From NCBI GenBank assembly GCA_002839375.1, contig PGXY01000009.1, positions 190,080 to 254,079 on the forward strand: DNA of 64,000 nt, given 5' to 3'. Positions 41,719 to 51,317 of the stretch are shown piece by piece. How positions within the stretch are numbered: the stretch's first letter is position 1; each line of letters opens with the position of its first letter. The translations under genes were made by a program, and so were the position numbers. Origin of the DNA: Spirochaetae bacterium HGW-Spirochaetae-1. GTDB lineage: Bacteria; Spirochaetota; UBA4802; UBA5550. The notes under the pieces were generated by a model. That model searched no databases and was not told where the DNA came from. It saw nothing but the letters and a program-made list of their open reading frames with translations.

Positions 41719-42486
41719 ATGGCTCATGCTTTTACCGTCAAATCGCAACAAATGAAATCTCAAATGATATATACTCTGCTTTTGGGGCCAATCCTGTGGA
41801 TTTCCCTGCTGCTGGGCGTCACCGGCATTGTGCTGAAGATTATCCGGCTCCTGCGCATGTCCTCTGCAACTGATACGCCTGGAGAGTGTGCTGCTCCGGC
41901 ATTGGGAGTATGGTCTGTCCCGGGCGGGACTGCGGGGTCCACCGCGCTGTTATCTACACGCATCCGCATTACTGTTAAAAATTCTCTCCTGGGCAGGGAT
42001 CCTTTTCTGGCCGCTGCGACCATGGTGTTTCATGGATGCCTCATCGCAACTCCACTGTTTTTAATGGCCCATAATGTACTGCTTTTCCAGTCGTGGCGCC
42101 TGCGCATAGTATCAATGCCCGAGGCTCTTTCCGATGTTCTTGCCATTACAGTGATCGTTTCTGCATTCCTGCTCCTGCTGCGAAGGATTTTTCTGAAAAG
42201 GGTCAGGATGCTTACATCATTCGGAGATCACGCTGCTCTGACCGCCGCAGTCGCACCATTTGTTACGGGAATGCTCGCCTATCATCAGACGGGTCCCTAT
42301 GATTTGATGATCATTCTTCACATTCTCAGTGGTGAGATTCTGATAATCGCGCTGGGATGGACAAGACTTTCCCACCCGGTCTTTTTTCTTTTTTCCCGTT
42401 TTATGATCGGCAGTGAATATGCCCTGGGCGGCGGGAGGCGGAGCTGGATGAGCAGTGCAAAGACGAGGGAAGGGTTGTATGGATGA
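41719..42486 (+). CDS. NarI/TmcC-like haem b membrane subunit
   Basis: 255 residues with five hydrophobic helices. It resembles the respiratory nitrate reductase gamma/DsrM/TmcC group of haem b quinone-linked subunits. Candidate axial His are H105 and H118 in one helix and H201 and H219 in a later one (LHILSGEILII and RLSHPVFFLFSR), the spacing seen in that group. ATG 41719 is the longest start; no clear ribosome site, and 41752 or 41764 are possible. The HdrC-like gene overlaps its end by eight bases, so the two are coupled. Confidence 0.75.
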   Translation: MAHAFTVKSQQMKSQMIYTLLLGPILWISLLLGVTGIVLKIIRLLRMSSATDTPGECAAPALGVWSVPGGTAGSTALLSTRIRITVKNSLLGRDPFLAAATMVFHGCLIATPLFLMAHNVLLFQSWRLRIVSMPEALSDVLAITVIVSAFLLLLRRIFLKRVRMLTSFGDHAALTAAVAPFVTGMLAYHQTGPYDLMIILHILSGEILIIALGWTRLSHPVFFLFSRFMIGSEYALGGGRRSWMSSAKTREGLYG

Positions 42487-42865
42487 TATGGTCAAAAAGG
42501 TCGATGCGGCCCTGGTGAAGAGTATGCTTCGTCAGAAGGAATACATGCGGGATTTCCTTTCGGTATGTGCCTCATGCGGGGCCTGCTCGGGCAGCTGTTT
42601 CCATTTCCGGAACCACGGCGATCCCCGCAGCACGCCGTCTTTCAAAGCCATGCGTTCGCTGGGACTCATGTTCAAAAAAGGGCGAAGGCTCACTATGGAT
42701 GACCTGGAGGAAATGAAGGATCTTATCTGGGGTAAATGCGTTCTCTGCCGCCGATGCTATTGTCCCATGGGCATCGATGTTTCATCCATGATCGCCTGGG
42801 CCCGGTCGATCTGCCGCGTGCACGGAGTCAGCGAGGATTATGAAAAAGGACCGAAGGGGATATGA
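42479..42865 (+). CDS. HdrC-like double [4Fe-4S] protein
   Basis: 128 residues. First cluster motif is CASCGACSGSC (residues 30-40); the second is CVLCRRCYCP (87-96), in which the last Cys gap is one residue instead of three, an unusual spacing. There is no Cys-rich CCG domain as in HdrD or TmcB, so this is only the electron-transfer part. GGGAAGGG precedes the ATG, which overlaps the previous gene. It probably shuttles electrons between the membrane haem b subunit and a cytoplasmic partner, here most simply MetVF. Confidence 0.8.
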   Translation: MDDMVKKVDAALVKSMLRQKEYMRDFLSVCASCGACSGSCFHFRNHGDPRSTPSFKAMRSLGLMFKKGRRLTMDDLEEMKDLIWGKCVLCRRCYCPMGIDVSSMIAWARSICRVHGVSEDYEKGPKGI

Positions 42866-43278
42866 CCGCGGAAAGAACATTGATTTGCATTTACATACTG
42901 ATTTTTGCCATGACCTGTGTCCTCATGGCGCAGTCTGATACTATCATCCTCAATAATGAGGGATATTATAATGATAAACAGCGGCCTTCCGTATCATTCC
43001 CTCACGGCCTTCACATGGCCGTCGTGCCCGAATGTCGCTCCTGCCATCACATTTTTCAAAAAGGTGTGAACGTTCTGGAAGAGTCAGTGCTTGTGGCTGA
43101 GAACGAGAACATCCGTTGCGTACACTGCCATGGAGATGGGAAAAACAATCATGGCCAGCGCATCATGGATGCCTACCATGTGCAGTGTCTGGGGTGCCAT
43201 CGCCTCATGCAGAAAAAGAAGAAAAAGGCAGGACCGCTGATGTGTGGGGCATGTCATAGAAAAAAGGATATACGTTGA
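42862..43278 (+). CDS. Periplasmic four-haem cytochrome c3 family protein
   Basis: 138 residues with a signal peptide (CIYILIFAMTCVLMAQ) so it is exported. Four CxxCH haem motifs lie at residues 58-62, 86-90, 109-113 and 128-132. His48 and His51 in FPHGLHM match the distal ligand pattern of class III cytochromes. The start overlaps the previous stop by four bases (ATGA). With the haem b and Fe-S subunits it forms a transmembrane electron path. Type I or type II c3 cannot be told apart. Confidence 0.85.
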   Translation: MTAERTLICIYILIFAMTCVLMAQSDTIILNNEGYYNDKQRPSVSFPHGLHMAVVPECRSCHHIFQKGVNVLEESVLVAENENIRCVHCHGDGKNNHGQRIMDAYHVQCLGCHRLMQKKKKKAGPLMCGACHRKKDIR

Positions 43279-43297
43279 TTTCTGAAAGGAGAACGGC

Positions 43298-43960
43298 ATG
43301 ATAATCGCCCACATTAAACCCATTGAAGAGATCATGAAAATGATCACGGGGCATAAAAAAATTCTTCTCGCCGGGTGTGCCGGATGTACGGCCGTGTGCA
43401 TGGCCGGCGGACAGCGCGAGGTGGATGAACTGGCCATACGTCTACGGTCCGAAATAAGCGGAGTTGATATAAAAAGATACACGGTGGAACGGCAGTGCGA
43501 AAGGGATTTTGTCGAAGAGCTGGGACCTTTCGTACAGAAGAGCGACGCGGTTCTTTCCATGGCATGCGGTGCCGGAGTCCAATTCGTTGCAGCGCGATAT
43601 CCCCGGCTTCCCGTGTTTCCGGCCCTCAACACTCTTTTTACCGGAGTCAACCGGGACCTGGGATGGTACGAGGAAAACTGCCGTTCCTGCGGCGACTGCC
43701 AGCTTGCCTGGACCGGCGGTATCTGTCCCGTAACGAGATGCGCCAAGAGTATTTTCAATGGTCCCTGCGGTGGTTCCGAGAAGGGTATGTGCGAAGTCAA
43801 TCCATCGTCGGAGTGTGCCTGGTGCGCCATCTACGAAAGGCTCAAGGCGCAGGGCAGGCTGGAGGATATTCTGTCCGTACGGGAACCCATGATATGGAAA
43901 AACCAGGTTCCGCGCACCCTGGTGCTGGAACGATTTGCGGCAAAACGGAGGAACAGCTAA
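43298..43960 (+). CDS. metV: MetV, methylene-tetrahydrofolate reductase zinc/Fe-S subunit
   Basis: 220 residues matching the MTHFR C-terminal family (MetV), the partner of MetF in acetogens. Cys-rich motifs are AGCAGCTAVCMAGG near residue 28 and a C-terminal CRSCGDC ... CPVTRCAKS ... GPCGG ... CEVN ... CAWCAIY region that binds clusters or zinc. It starts 19 bases after the cytochrome c3 gene and ends two bases before the metF start, so all five genes form one unit. It is thought to pass electrons to MetF. Confidence 0.85.
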   Translation: MIIAHIKPIEEIMKMITGHKKILLAGCAGCTAVCMAGGQREVDELAIRLRSEISGVDIKRYTVERQCERDFVEELGPFVQKSDAVLSMACGAGVQFVAARYPRLPVFPALNTLFTGVNRDLGWYEENCRSCGDCQLAWTGGICPVTRCAKSIFNGPCGGSEKGMCEVNPSSECAWCAIYERLKAQGRLEDILSVREPMIWKNQVPRTLVLERFAAKRRNS

Positions 43961-43961
43961 G

Positions 43962-44885
43962 ATGAAGACGGGAAGCAGGCTGGAGTCCCTTCTCGATGCA
44001 GGCGAATTCGTGGTTACGGGGGAACTGGGGCCGCCGCGGGGGAACGACGCCGCAGTAATTCGCGAAAAAGGGGAAATGCTGCGCGGCGTTGTCGATGCTG
44101 TGAATATAACCGATAACCAAACCGCCATAGTGCGCATGTCAAGCATAGCCGCTGCCTCTATCCTCGCCGGAATGGGCATTGAACCGGTGATGCAGATGAC
44201 CGCCCGGGACCGAAACCGTATCGCCATCCAGAGCGATGTCCTGGGGGCCTCGGCACTGGGCATCCGTAACATCCTCTGTATAAGCGGTGATCACCAGTCC
44301 TTCGGGAACCAGCAGTGCTGCAGGAATGTGTACGATGTGGATTCCATCCAGATGCTGGGCATGGTTAAAAGAATGCGCGATGAAGGGAAGGTTCTGGGCA
44401 GTGATGATGAACTCAGGGGCAGGCCGGGGATGTTCATCGGGGCCGCGGCGAATCCCTTTGCGGAACCCTTTGAAATGCGTCCCCTGCGCCTTAAAAAGAA
44501 AGTGGATGCCGGCGCAGATTTTATACAGACGCAATGCATTTTCGATATGAAAAGGTTCAGGGATTACATGAAGGTCGTCGTGGACATGGGACTTCATGAG
44601 AGATGCCATATTCTGGCCGGCATCATGCCCCTGAAATCGGCGGGTATGGCACGATACATGGCAGAGCAGGTGCCCGGTGTAACTGTTCCGGAGCATCTTA
44701 TAAGGAGGATGGCCGGTGTCACAAAAGAAAAAGCCGCCGAAGAGGGAATCGCCATCTGCTGTGAGATAGTTGATGAACTCAGGGCCATAGATGGGATCAA
44801 GGGAATCCACCTCATGGCCATTGAATGGGAGCATCGTGTATCGCAGATTCTTGAAAAAGCGAAACTTCTGAAGCAGCGAGGCTGA
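43962..44885 (+). CDS. metF: Methylene-tetrahydrofolate reductase (MetV-associated)
   Basis: Reversible reduction of methylene- to methyl-tetrahydrofolate. 307 residues from ATG 43962, with GGAGG ten bases before. The FAD-binding TIM barrel shows GELGPPRGNDAA, NITDNQTAIVRM, CISGDHQS, FIQTQCIFD and GIMPLKSAGMARYM. An earlier frame extension to 43935 overlaps metV and is not used. Lacks an NADH-binding extension, so its electrons probably come through MetV and the Fe-S/cytochrome subunits. Confidence 0.9.
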   Translation: MKTGSRLESLLDAGEFVVTGELGPPRGNDAAVIREKGEMLRGVVDAVNITDNQTAIVRMSSIAAASILAGMGIEPVMQMTARDRNRIAIQSDVLGASALGIRNILCISGDHQSFGNQQCCRNVYDVDSIQMLGMVKRMRDEGKVLGSDDELRGRPGMFIGAAANPFAEPFEMRPLRLKKKVDAGADFIQTQCIFDMKRFRDYMKVVVDMGLHERCHILAGIMPLKSAGMARYMAEQVPGVTVPEHLIRRMAGVTKEKAAEEGIAICCEIVDELRAIDGIKGIHLMAIEWEHRVSQILEKAKLLKQRG

Positions 44886-44893
44886 AGGAATGA

Positions 44894-45418
44894 TCAGTAG
44901 GAAAAAACGACTTTGCCGTTGATGGCGTCTCCGGTGAAAAGACCAAGTTCACGGCTGTCCGAGGGAATGTCCAGATTGTCATTGAGCAGGAAATACTCGC
45001 CCCGTTTCAATTTCACTGCCACCATGTTGTCCCTGCTGGTGAAGTTCATGGGGAATATTCTTGCGTCACGGGAAATCGTCTTCCAGGGAAAGACTATTTT
45101 TTTATTATCAACATAAATGATCTTCTGCCGTATTTCAACAGTGTTCCCTTCCAGGGCAATAACTCTTTTAAGGAAGTATCGTCCTTTTTCCCCGGGGCTT
45201 TCCGCCAGGACAACATCGCCGGTCACGGGCGTGATATGCTTTAGAACAATAACATGGCGGCCCTTTTCCAGCGATGGTTCCATGGCTGTATCGTGTACTG
45301 TGACAGGGACAATAAATATCCTCGACAGGAGAAAACCCGCCAGTATTCCTGCCAGAGCTATAAGTATTTTTGCCGGTGTATTAATGATTGATGTATCGAT
45401 GTTATCGGAGCGGCTCAT
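44894..45418 (-). CDS. Signal-peptidase-I-like protein with Ser nucleophile replaced
   Basis: 174 residues of the S26 leader peptidase family with an N-terminal membrane helix (ILIALAGILAGFLLSRIFIV). In the box that normally reads Ser-Met-x-Pro, the sequence is TAMEPSL, with Ala45 in place of the nucleophilic Ser; the codon is GCC. The general-base Lys is present at 84 (YFLKRVIALEGN), and the conserved GDVV box is intact. It therefore looks like a catalytically dead homologue or one using another residue. Divergently flanked by two metF genes on either strand. Confidence 0.8.
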   Translation of the reverse strand: MSRSDNIDTSIINTPAKILIALAGILAGFLLSRIFIVPVTVHDTAMEPSLEKGRHVIVLKHITPVTGDVVLAESPGEKGRYFLKRVIALEGNTVEIRQKIIYVDNKKIVFPWKTISRDARIFPMNFTSRDNMVAVKLKRGEYFLLNDNLDIPSDSRELGLFTGDAINGKVVFSY

Positions 45419-45470: not shown

Positions 45471-46328
45471 TTACAATCCCAATGCATCCATAATGCGTGT
45501 AACTGCCATGGATTTGTTGATGGTGTAGATATGAAAACCGGGCACCCCCCATGTTTTAAGTTCATGACACTGTTCAATGGAATAATCCAGTCCCGCTTCA
45601 CAAATGGAATCCTTAGAACCGCAGCTCTTGAGAATGCCAAGAAGTCTGTCGGGAACCGATGCTCCACACAGGCCTGTAATTTTCTGGATCTGTGCCAGGC
45701 TTGTCACGGGCATGATACCGGGAATAATAGGCACTCCTATGCCTTTTTTTTCAACACTGTCCATGAAATCGTAAAAAGCATCATTATTATAAAACAACTG
45801 GGTGATGATGAATTGCGCTCCGGCGTCGACCTTTTTTTTAAGATTATCAATATCCGTATCCAGGTCCGGAGCCTCCAGGTGCCCTTCAGGATAACCTGCC
45901 GCTGCAATGGTAAAACCATTGATGCTTTTTATGAAATCGATGAGTTCGCTGGCATGGGAAAAACCGTCGGGATGCGGTGTAAACCTGCTTTCCCCTACGG
46001 GAGGGTCGCCTCGCAGGGCAAGGATATTTTCTATTCCATGGGATTTGACCTCCTGAAGGTACGCTTCGATTTCATTTTTTCCTGCTCCCACACAGGTGAA
46101 ATGCACCAGGGGAGGAATGCCATACTTGTCCCGTACTTTAAGAGCGATTTCCAGGGTCTTTACCCTGGTCGTACCACCGGCTCCGTAGGTGACAGAAACG
46201 AAATCGGGTTTGTGCGAGGACAGAATATCGAGCTCTTTCCAGAGATTTTTTTCTCCCTCGGCTGTTTTTGGTGGGAAAATTTCGAAGGATACGGCAAATT
46301 TATTATTATAGAGAGTATTCAGTCGCAT
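45471..46328 (-). CDS. metF: Methylene-tetrahydrofolate reductase (methionine pathway)
   Basis: 285 residues from ATG 46328 (AGGA seven bases upstream). Canonical MetF features: SFEIFPPKTAEGE near the N-terminus, FVSVTYGAGGTTR, ALRGDPPVGESRF, QLFYNNDAF and IPGIMPVTSLAQI. This stands alone, without a MetV, and fits the ordinary NAD(P)H-dependent enzyme that supplies methyl-THF to methionine synthase. It is a different type from the MetV-linked copy at 43962. Confidence 0.93.
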   Translation of the reverse strand: MRLNTLYNNKFAVSFEIFPPKTAEGEKNLWKELDILSSHKPDFVSVTYGAGGTTRVKTLEIALKVRDKYGIPPLVHFTCVGAGKNEIEAYLQEVKSHGIENILALRGDPPVGESRFTPHPDGFSHASELIDFIKSINGFTIAAAGYPEGHLEAPDLDTDIDNLKKKVDAGAQFIITQLFYNNDAFYDFMDSVEKKGIGVPIIPGIMPVTSLAQIQKITGLCGASVPDRLLGILKSCGSKDSICEAGLDYSIEQCHELKTWGVPGFHIYTINKSMAVTRIMDALGL

Positions 46329-46711
46329 GGGCAATTCCTGCTTGATTCATCAGATTATAGAAAGTCCATAACACGAAAGGAGTGCAGTTTTGCAATACTA
46401 ATTTTCCGATAACGAGGACCAGTCTTAAACCACAGAAATATGTGTACGTGTAAATCGATATTGTTGCGATTTTTCAGGATCACCCTTATTTTTATATGCA
46501 TTTTTGTAATAATATTCTTGCCCGGTATGGATGGAATGTATAATTTTCTTGACAAAGACTTTACTACATATAATAATAAATATAGCAATATGTATAATTA
46601 AATACTAAATTTTTTCTACACTTTTGCCGACTGTTGTTATAGAGAGGTGTAGATTTTTTCTTCATATGAAATACAGAGGGAAAAATCAATGTTAACAAAA
46701 AGGAGTTATCA
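46329..46711. other. Intergenic region upstream of flaA genes
   Basis: A 383-base, very AT-rich gap. It holds the flaA promoter and no gene could be found. A short hairpin precedes the ribosome site of the first flaA gene. Confidence 0.4.
46549..46577 (+). promoter_or_regulatory. Promoter of the flaA operon
   Basis: TTGACA at 46549-46554 and AATAAT at 46572-46577 (five of six consensus bases) with a 17-base spacer. This is a sigma-70-type site; no sigma-28 pattern was seen. The leader is about 130 bases. Confidence 0.6.
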
Positions 46712-48614: not shown

Positions 48615-51317
48615 ATGGGTCAGGAAAAAGTGCTGGGGAAACTGGAATCGCTGTTTAAAGAAGAACAATGGGGGAGGATTGAACCCAAGGATATTGGTAT
48701 ATCCAAATTTAAAATACTAGAAGATCTTTTCAATTCCGTAGTTTCTGAAGGGCTGGTGCTGGATACACAGTCTATCTGTAGAAAACATCTTGAGGAAACA
48801 GGTGAATCCATCACCGCCATGTATATGCTGGGACTTATCGGCTACCATAATGATCGTATAGATGATTCCATACAACTGAGAAAGCTTATAGATATTTTTA
48901 TTAACAGCCAGAAATGGGCTGTGGTGGAGATACTTGCCGAGAAGATTCTGGAGTATGGTGAAAACAGCGTTGCTCTTCGTGCCCTGGCTGTGAGTCTCGA
49001 GAGGCTGGGAAGAGCGCGTGAGGCCATTCCTGTGCTGGAAGGACTGCTGAAAATTGACCGGTTCGACACCGAGGTGGCCAAAAAGCTCGCTTTTGCCCTC
49101 ATTAATGAGGATTCTGAAAAGAGCATTTATTACATGAAACTCGCAATTGAAGGATTTATAAAGAACAAGGATTTTGACGAGGTAGTCACACTATGGAATA
49201 AGCTGGTGACTTTTTCATGGGAGGATGTGACTTTCTTTGAGAGAATAGAAAGAATGCTGGCTGAAGCGAAACAGCAGGAGCTTGCCGCAACATTACTCAA
49301 GACGCTTTTAAACAAGTATCGTGATGAGGAAAATCCGTCACAATCCATTGAACTGATTAAAAAAATATTGGCCTACAGGCCCGATGATAATCATGCGCGC
49401 CGGGACCTCATCAGGCTGTACCGCATCAAATACGGGAACCATTCTCAATTTGAACAGTTTCTCAAACTGTCGCGGCTCAGCAATTTTAAAATACCCGTTA
49501 AATTAGCCATACAGGATTTTGAGAAGAATATTGTTTTCGACAAAGGTAACTACGCCTTTCATAATTCATGGAAACTGGGGAAAATAATTGATATCGACAT
49601 GGAGTCCATTGTTATCAGTTTCAAAGACAAGCAGGAACATAAAATGTCCGTTCAGATGGCACTTCAGTCTCTTACGCCGATTCCCGCAGATCATCTTTAT
49701 GTCCTGGAGTATGACGATCCTGAAATGCTGATGAAGCTCTTCAAAGAAGATTTCATACAATTCTTTGAAATTCTAATAAAATCATACGGTGGAGAGATAA
49801 ATGCCGCCGATGTCAAAAGGGAACTGATTCCGCGATATATCGAGGAAAAAAATTGGGGGAAATGGTGGAACAAGGCCAGAACGGAAATCAAGAAGGACCC
49901 CCTTTATGGCGTATCTGAAAAGAAGAAAGATCTTATCTTCATGCGGGACAAACCGGTGACATTCGTTGAGGAGCTTCTGGATAAATTTTCCAGGAGCAGT
50001 TCCTTCGGCACCCGTCTTGATATTGCCCTGGAATTTATCAATAACATAGAAGTAAAAGAGGGGGCTTCGGTCGTTCACTTCTTTATTGATTATTTTACCG
50101 ACGAGGCTAAAGGAGATTCCAATACCAGGCTGATTCTTTCTTATTTTATCCTTAAAGACCTGGCGCGATATGTGGAGCCGGGGAAGCTTAAACTCGATAC
50201 CATACAAACAAAGGTTATGGATTTTATCGGTAAAAGCAGTGAGTTGCATCTTATCTCGATGAAGATAGGTTCCTATGATTATAAAAAGGATTTTGTAAAT
50301 CTTATAGAGGAATCGAGAGAAGATTGGCCCCAGGTAGTTGCCGAAATGCTCTTCGAGACTCCGGTGAGAATTCACAAATATATCATCAATAATCTAATCA
50401 GGGCTCATGCTTATAACATAATCAATAATTTTATCGACCGCGTCATGACGGGAATGAAACAGTCACCGGAGATATTTATTTGGGTGGCCCGGAATCTTTT
50501 CAACAGGATTTGGGATTATCAATGGCTTGACTATTCCCGGAAGAGCTTCGCAATAACATTCTTCAGGCTCATGAATGAATTGAAAAAAATTGAGACCGAG
50601 GGCAACAGGCTGAAAAACATAGCAATGGATATTCTTTTTGACAATGATGCCGTTGTTCTCAGGGATATCATCAAGGAAAATGACAAGGCCTTTGCCGGAA
50701 GAATTTTTGATGTTTTCAGCGATCTTCCCTATGTCGAGGAAGCGCAAAGGGAAAAAGTGCTGTCTCACATTAAACAGAAGTTCCCCGATTTTACCCGCGA
50801 GCATGCAGCTAACGGTGAGGTTCTGGATCTCGATGTGGAGCGTCTTATAGTAACCCAGGACGGGTATGAAAAAAAGAAATCGGAACTGGATCATATGGTT
50901 AATGTGGAGATGGTACAGCTATCAAGGGAATTATCCAAAGTGGCCGAAGCTACCGGTGACATGAGGGAAAATGTTGAATACAATGCACTCATGGAGAAGC
51001 AGTCTATTCTTGAGATGGCTATCTCCAAACTGGATAATGAGATGAAACAGGCTGGCATTCTGGATTTTTCCAAGGTATCCACGGAAATAGTTTCTGTTGG
51101 AACAGTGGTATCCTTTGAGGACGTGGAGCAGGGTGAAAAAAGGATTTATACGATTCTCGGTCCCTGGGATGCTGATTTTGAGAGGGATATTCTGTCATAC
51201 CGATCACCTATAGCACAAGCCATACTGGGCAAAAAAATGGGTGAAGAGTTTACGTTGAAAATTGATGAAGGAAATAAAAAGTTTCGTATTACAGCCATTA
51301 GCAAATGTGCCGGATGA
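48615..51317 (+). CDS. greA: Transcription elongation factor GreA with large N-terminal helical domain
   Basis: 900 residues. The last ~160 are a complete GreA: coiled-coil hairpin with tip GDMRENVEYNALMEKQ (the acidic pair that coordinates the catalytic Mg is kept as Asp and Glu) then a FKBP-like C-domain (VSVGTVVSFEDVEQGEKRIY and DFERDILSYRSPIAQAILG). The first ~740 are TPR-like and other helical repeats (MYMLGLIGYHND, VALRALAVSLERLGRAREAIP). Such giant GreA proteins occur in Borrelia and Leptospira. It should cleave backtracked RNA in RNA polymerase. Confidence 0.9.
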   Translation: MGQEKVLGKLESLFKEEQWGRIEPKDIGISKFKILEDLFNSVVSEGLVLDTQSICRKHLEETGESITAMYMLGLIGYHNDRIDDSIQLRKLIDIFINSQKWAVVEILAEKILEYGENSVALRALAVSLERLGRAREAIPVLEGLLKIDRFDTEVAKKLAFALINEDSEKSIYYMKLAIEGFIKNKDFDEVVTLWNKLVTFSWEDVTFFERIERMLAEAKQQELAATLLKTLLNKYRDEENPSQSIELIKKILAYRPDDNHARRDLIRLYRIKYGNHSQFEQFLKLSRLSNFKIPVKLAIQDFEKNIVFDKGNYAFHNSWKLGKIIDIDMESIVISFKDKQEHKMSVQMALQSLTPIPADHLYVLEYDDPEMLMKLFKEDFIQFFEILIKSYGGEINAADVKRELIPRYIEEKNWGKWWNKARTEIKKDPLYGVSEKKKDLIFMRDKPVTFVEELLDKFSRSSSFGTRLDIALEFINNIEVKEGASVVHFFIDYFTDEAKGDSNTRLILSYFILKDLARYVEPGKLKLDTIQTKVMDFIGKSSELHLISMKIGSYDYKKDFVNLIEESREDWPQVVAEMLFETPVRIHKYIINNLIRAHAYNIINNFIDRVMTGMKQSPEIFIWVARNLFNRIWDYQWLDYSRKSFAITFFRLMNELKKIETEGNRLKNIAMDILFDNDAVVLRDIIKENDKAFAGRIFDVFSDLPYVEEAQREKVLSHIKQKFPDFTREHAANGEVLDLDVERLIVTQDGYEKKKSELDHMVNVEMVQLSRELSKVAEATGDMRENVEYNALMEKQSILEMAISKLDNEMKQAGILDFSKVSTEIVSVGTVVSFEDVEQGEKRIYTILGPWDADFERDILSYRSPIAQAILGKKMGEEFTLKIDEGNKKFRITAISKCAG

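Follow-up and report, generated by a model that had tools for sequence, protein, structure and literature searches.

MetVF genes joined to a Tmc/Hmc-derived cytochrome unit: a candidate membrane-anchored methylene-tetrahydrofolate reductase in a spirochaete and its relatives

Four types of methylene-tetrahydrofolate reductase (MTHFR) have been described, namely MetF, MetVF, MetVF-RnfC2 and MetVF-HdrCBA-MvhD (PMC8760232, PMC9430772; PMC13040438, April 2026). Rnf, Ech or Hdr has been put forward as the link between MetVF and the membrane (PMC8760232, PMC8578096), and a membrane or quinone contact has been proposed for the Type IV enzymes (PMC9430772, PMC8578096, PMC13040438), of which the third electron carrier is still unknown (PMC13040438). 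Membranes of Thermacetogenium phaeum oxidize methyl-tetrahydrofolate (methyl-THF) with benzyl viologen and accept a quinone analogue (PMC6895022). Here we examine a five-gene operon at positions 41719-44885 (+ strand) of a 64,000-nucleotide stretch, called the window below, from Spirochaetae bacterium HGW-Spirochaetae-1, a Spirochaetota metagenome-assembled genome (MAG) of 5.2 Mb and 96.5% completeness. Its products likely form a membrane-anchored methylene-THF reductase that links methyl-THF to periplasmic cytochromes and menaquinone.

All five open reading frames (ORFs) were found at this place and on this strand, as tightly packed as a preliminary description of the window had reported. Counted from the preferred starts, the first two genes overlap by 8 bases and the second and third by 4 bases, and the gaps that follow are 19 bases and 1 base. 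The first gene (41719..42486, +; likely true start 41752 or 41764) encodes a di-haem b membrane protein with about five predicted hydrophobic helices that matches TmcC (5.9e-45; NF045723, 153 bits, equivalog cutoff 240) and HmcE (9.6e-42). Residues H94, H107, H190 and H208, numbered from 41752, are invariant in 44 homologues, and the latter two align with H187 and H205 of NarI. A fold search of the PDB with its AlphaFold model (as for all structures used, a single chain) returned NarI in each of the top eight places, with probability 1.00, TM scores of 0.42-0.58 and a best E value of 0.011. The exported tetrahaem cytochrome c3 (42862..43278, +; start ATG 42862) matches Cytochrom_CIII (8.9e-13) and TmcA (1.9e-22; NF045722, 79 bits, equivalog cutoff 114). 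It has a hydrophobic, export-like N-terminal segment, four CxxCH motifs and four conserved distal histidines (H48, H51, H63 and H106), so that both cytochromes are what the preliminary description had taken them to be.

The gene between them (42479..42865, +) codes for an iron-sulfur (FeS) protein of about 128 residues. Its ORF is open from 42455, and the most likely start is ATG 42479, with the Shine-Dalgarno sequence AGGGAAGGG closely upstream. The protein matches Fer4_8 (6.1e-08) and the N-terminal third alone of HmcF and TmcB (3.5e-21 and 2.6e-20; first ~150 positions); against the TmcB profile about 100 residues align, at positions 34-137 only, with 72 bits for a cutoff of 735. Family searches gave no match to the CCG domains of TmcB/HmcF in this short TmcB. 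The motifs CxxCxxCxxxC and CxxCxxCxCP are invariant in 36 homologues, and DsrK/HmcF-like relatives carry two more residues in the second one. The preliminary description was thus right about a double [4Fe-4S] protein, but its label HdrC-like gives way to that of an N-terminal part of TmcB/HmcF.

The last two genes are MetV and MetF, as had been proposed. MetV (43298..43960, +; start ATG 43298), the zinc/FeS subunit of MetVF-type reductases, has a C-terminal DUF5981 domain (1.6e-35) and 12 cysteines that are invariant across 55 sequences. MetF (43962..44885, +), the flavin-containing catalytic subunit, is open from TTG 43935 and most likely starts at ATG 43962, 1 base past MetV. It belongs to the MTHFR family (PF02219, 5.6e-43), shares 58-65% identity with its counterparts in the corresponding operons of relatives and reaches only 88 bits with the profile of canonical NAD(P)H-dependent MetF (TIGR00676, cutoff 293.7). 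A non-canonical MetF directly adjoining a DUF5981-containing MetV is the arrangement of MetVF-type enzymes. Neither an export signal nor a clear membrane helix was detected in short TmcB, MetV or MetF, the one marginal hydrophobic stretch in MetF lying inside the MTHFR domain, and these three proteins should therefore be cytoplasmic. Sequence searches found no PDB homologues for MetV or short TmcB, and the fold search with MetV gave weak matches, mainly to periplasmic-binding-type folds.

A known system close in composition is Tmc of sulfate reducers (TmcABCD), which shares the tetrahaem c3 (TmcA), the haem b anchor (TmcC) and a cytoplasmic double-[4Fe-4S] protein (TmcB). The operon differs in that its TmcB is reduced to the N-terminal third, with no CCG domains and the shorter second cluster motif, and in having MetV and MetF as its partners in the cytoplasm. 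Type IV MTHFR (MetVF-HdrCBA-MvhD; Moorella, Sporomusa) has in common a MetVF core connected to other FeS carriers, but in place of HdrA, HdrB and MvhD the operon encodes an exported cytochrome and a haem subunit that truly spans the membrane. Indeed, HdrA, HdrB, HdrC and MvhD were found neither in the operon nor in its flanks; they are present next to other MetVF copies in relatives. Types II (MetVF) and III (MetVF-RnfC2) again share the core, whereas the partner here is a membrane cytochrome complex, and no RnfC2 ORF occurs in window 41719-45418. Thermacetogenium phaeum resembles the proposed system in its quinone-dependent MTHFR activity; its genes are Type IV-like (Hdr), with no Tmc-like partner reported (PMC6895022). 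On the sequence evidence the operon is outside Tmc, for lack of CCG domains, and belongs to neither Type III nor Type IV. The most fitting description is a MetVF reductase on a Tmc/Hmc-derived membrane unit, probably a fifth type beside the four listed in 2026. The parts that we could consult of papers on Tmc paralogues in sulfate reducers (PMC2702500, PMC5109826) and on metF-HdrABC (PMC10553843), together with other open-access literature, nowhere described a MetVF linked to Tmc or Hmc; an earlier report elsewhere is possible.

To follow the association through other genomes, the short FeS protein was searched in 148 related genomes. Strong matches (E < 1e-29) occurred in 11 genomes besides its own. 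The order haem b - FeS - c3 - MetV - MetF on one strand is kept in ten other genomes of the same taxonomic order, and the eleventh (L025) retains the first four genes, with MetF absent from its 14-kb contig. Thus MetV lies beside short TmcB in all 12 related genomes that have short TmcB, and MetF is part of the cluster in 11 of the 12. Identity of these Spirochaetota proteins to those of the window runs from 27-45% for c3 and the haem b protein up to 58-68% for MetF. Weaker matches were long DsrK/HmcF-like proteins without MetV.

An alignment profile of short TmcB was then run against 84,980 species genomes and retrieved 320 relatives, of which the best 80 were kept. They were chosen by likeness to the MetV-linked proteins, so what they show applies to this subfamily and not to all Tmc. 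MetV is contiguous with short TmcB in 75 of the 80 loci; in the other five MetV lies ~630 bases off (L097), the contig end cuts the locus (L072, L112) or the TmcB ORFs are longer (L111, L114). Most hosts are Desulfobacterota. The 80 loci come from Desulfobacteraceae, Desulfococcus, Desulfosarcina cetonica, Syntrophaceae, Syntrophobacteraceae, Desulfohalobiaceae, Ca. Tharpella and Spirochaetota and include two explicit Myxococcota MAGs; Myxococcota labels on entries named merely Deltaproteobacteria were not trusted. Gene orders are many (C-B-A-V-F, F-C-B-A-V, A-V-C-B-F, C-B-V-F-HmcA and others, with the letters of the Tmc and Met genes), which indicates that the association has outlasted repeated rearrangement. 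The preliminary description had pointed to conservation in other genomes as a check, and the outcome in Spirochaetota, Desulfobacterota and Myxococcota MAGs is strongly positive, shuffled orders included.

Most loci carry the tetrahaem c3, and in about ten of the best 80 the 16-haem cytochrome HmcA takes its place; the two that were scanned scored 424 and 415 bits against a cutoff of 400. The Hmc-type loci with short TmcB and MetVF are L047, L051, L052, L055, L067, L082, L089, L090, L096, L097 and L117, although the 16-haem cytochrome was not found beside L096. In several of them an FeS protein and then an NrfD-like membrane protein follow, named from sequence and clustering and not each by a scan, and an acsE-like gene directly precedes some. 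These loci resemble Hmc (HmcABCDEF) in pairing the haem b protein and a short HmcF with HmcA, an HmcB-like FeS protein and an HmcC/NrfD-like protein, but differ by the truncated HmcF and the attached MetVF. The 16-haem HmcA, HmcB and HmcC are present in L047 and L051 and missing from the window operon, which has c3 only. The conserved set, the shuffled orders and the two interchangeable cytochrome modules are explained most simply if the genes form a functional unit.

The MetV sequences group accordingly by neighborhood. When the 148 relatives were searched with a MetV profile, exactly the 12 operon MetVs came out on top (329-395 bits), and all others stayed at or below 278 bits. Most of the second MetV copies that we inspected lie either by genes for large HdrA-like proteins, HdrB (CCG) and MvhD (FlpD), as in Type IV-like clusters, or by NADH- or formate-dehydrogenase-type modules. 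In a tree of 82 MetVs, the 72 Tmc-linked ones fall on one side of a branch with a Shimodaira-Hasegawa-like approximate likelihood ratio (SH-aLRT) of 88, below the mark of 95. This bears on whether MetVF could be an ordinary soluble ferredoxin-type reductase whose genes are only expressed together with those of an independent, small Tmc-like complex, in line with acetogen MetVF, which purifies as a soluble enzyme and takes electrons from ferredoxin (PMC8760232, PMC9430772). We regard that as improbable, because MetV stays with short TmcB over many rearrangements in several phyla, the Tmc-linked MetVs form their own group, and a Tmc unit stripped of its CCG domains would have no catalytic partner.

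In full-length Tmc, Hmc and DsrMK the CCG domains act on a DsrC-type disulfide. The short TmcB would be the cytoplasmic subunit of Tmc/Hmc from which these disulfide-acting domains were lost, with MetVF serving as the catalytic head instead. It is very improbable that MetVF is a passenger and that short TmcB, TmcC and TmcA still serve such a disulfide by way of a CCG protein encoded elsewhere: HdrB-like proteins do occur near some loci, and full-length TmcB handles the disulfide through its CCG domains (PMC10553843), yet no CCG protein was seen in the operon of the window or adjoining it in the Spirochaetota relatives, and MetV is nearly always present.

In the membrane-anchored reductase that we favor, the flavin of MetF would interconvert methyl-THF and methylene-THF on the cytoplasmic side, and electrons could pass via the FeS centers of MetV and the two [4Fe-4S] clusters of short TmcB to two haems b and on to the four haems c in the periplasm. 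The parts thus make up a plausible path from the MetF flavin to the haems of the periplasm, in agreement with the earlier proposal that folate chemistry is joined through the membrane to a periplasmic cytochrome, and the transfer itself is inferred from them. From c3, electrons may move on to menaquinone through a Qrc-like complex. The host genome encodes homologues of QrcA-D (87.9, 298.6, 276.8 and 299.7 bits, under the equivalog cutoffs), MqnA/D-type menaquinone biosynthesis genes and cytochrome c assembly genes, which indicates that c3 can be joined to menaquinone.

With E0' of the methylene-/methyl-THF couple at -200 mV (PMC9430772, PMC6895022) and cytochrome c3 at about -200 mV (PMC8578096), the reaction would be reversible near -200 mV. 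Menaquinone lies at -74 mV, and menaquinol-driven reduction of methylene-THF costs ~24 kJ/mol (PMC13040438); oxidation of methyl-THF to menaquinone is therefore downhill by the same amount. The favored direction would be that methyl-THF gives electrons to the cytochrome/menaquinone side, and with a strong periplasmic donor such as H2 or formate the complex could run as an energy-conserving reduction. A mainly reductive role of the same complex, in which periplasmic H2 or formate electrons reach methylene-THF through c3 with scalar-proton energy conservation as proposed for Sporomusa ovata, is possible but appears the less likely one. H2-driven methylene-THF reduction has been demonstrated with S. 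ovata membranes (PMC9430772), the operon lies inside the ACS cluster of relatives that contain the Wood-Ljungdahl pathway, and Desulfovibrio Tmc brings electrons of periplasmic hydrogen oxidation inward (PMC5109826, citing Pereira 2006). Such a role is difficult to reconcile with the uphill step from menaquinol, with an own genome that has no ACS to use methyl-THF, with a second MetF next door (window 45471-46334), of the NAD(P)H type and serving methionine, and with the many hosts that are sulfate reducers and syntrophs, likely running the pathway oxidatively.

Domain searches showed that both acetyl-CoA synthase (ACS; C-terminal domain) and formyl-THF synthetase (FTHFS) are absent from the own genome, so the co-occurrence with the Wood-Ljungdahl pathway that the preliminary description suggested checking does not hold there. 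CdhC matches on contig C7 were rejected as ACS, being short proteins in a 2-hydroxyacyl-CoA-dehydratase-like cluster (L120:4792-16374, ~144.8-156.4 kb) that also holds D-components, activator-like ATPases and a CooC-like ATPase beside the small weak-CdhC proteins. MTTB, a methylamine-type methyltransferase, was considered as a methyl source and dismissed, as it is absent from this genome. Among the 12 Spirochaetota genomes with the operon, ACS occurs in 4, FTHFS in 9 and neither in 3, the own genome included. In Spirochaetes bacterium RBG_16_49_21 (G012), which is of the same family as the host, the operon comes immediately after an acsE-like gene of the ACS cluster, and 13 of the 80 loci have a homologue of the G012 ACS nearby. 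With ACS close by in some hosts and absent from others, the complex would belong to the acetyl-CoA pathway in many organisms and not be tied to it. The folate-methyl enzymes found in the own genome are MetH, an 807-residue protein and, adjacent to the operon, a canonical MetF of the NAD(P)H type. Since methionine synthesis already has its own reductase, methyl-THF oxidation is the favored role of the operon in this genome.

Several observations weigh against the proposed complex. The TmcA, TmcB and TmcC homologues all score under their NCBIfam equivalog cutoffs, and the SH-aLRT of the Tmc-linked MetV group is below its mark. L025 and many Desulfobacteraceae loci, ordered C-B-A-V or A-V-C-B in the latter, have no MetF in the cluster; membrane proteins and MetV occur there without MetF, the Desulfobacterales cases being L054, L056, L060, L061, L063, L073, L080, L088, L095 and L115, and a catalytic MetF may be shared in these hosts. 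Finally, apart from methionine synthases no source or sink of methyl-THF was found in the own genome, which has no ACS, FTHFS or MTTB.

Some further features touch on these proteins. The canonical MetF (TIGR00676, 330 bits; window 45471-46334, -) lies ~590 bases past the operon on the opposite strand, so that two distinct methylene-THF reductases are encoded as neighbors in this genome. The 807-residue protein, which combines a homocysteine methyltransferase domain with a pterin-binding and a B12 domain, is encoded ~320 bases before the QrcA-D homologues (L152:5699-13001, C7 ~299.7-307 kb), possibly another link of methyl transfer to cytochrome/menaquinone redox chemistry. A MetF domain is fused to the C-terminal MetV domain in proteins of ~490-680 residues (L069, L072, L077, L078, L094, L102, L107), of which the longest carry an unassigned N-terminal extension; some Desulfobacterota-like genomes encode them close to the operon. 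A genome scan with a single c3 sequence gave no matches. In one Spirochaetota genome a class III cytochrome domain is fused to the TmcC-like haem b protein at its N-terminus (L030:8389-9477, L049:6872-7960), with a separate c3 alongside, a natural fusion that speaks for the proposed complex. Elsewhere in the window, a 900-residue protein (48615-51317, +) consists of a long TPR-like region to which a GreA/GreB transcription elongation factor is fused at the rear, and two FlaA flagellar filament outer layer genes are present, as a spirochaete host would predict.

The methyl-/methylene-THF couple, at -200 mV, is the energetic obstacle to acetate oxidation with NAD+, and in acetogens it has been proposed as the step at which energy is conserved. 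A conserved complex of MetVF with cytochromes offers a concrete and testable candidate for the membrane partner of MetVF. The evidence comes mostly from MAGs, and the candidate also occurs in the cultured Desulfosarcina cetonica (L063) and is widespread in environmental sulfate reducers and syntrophs. On balance we lean towards the broader view that, as a fifth MTHFR type, this Tmc-/Hmc-like integral respiratory complex may be the long-missing membrane acceptor or donor for the methyl-THF step in the oxidative and reductive acetyl-CoA pathway of many sulfate reducers and syntrophs, conserving energy there, and that in the spirochaete lineage it may also be a pathway-free entry point of methyl-folate into respiration. 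If true, this would explain how the host cells tie one-carbon chemistry to membrane respiration.

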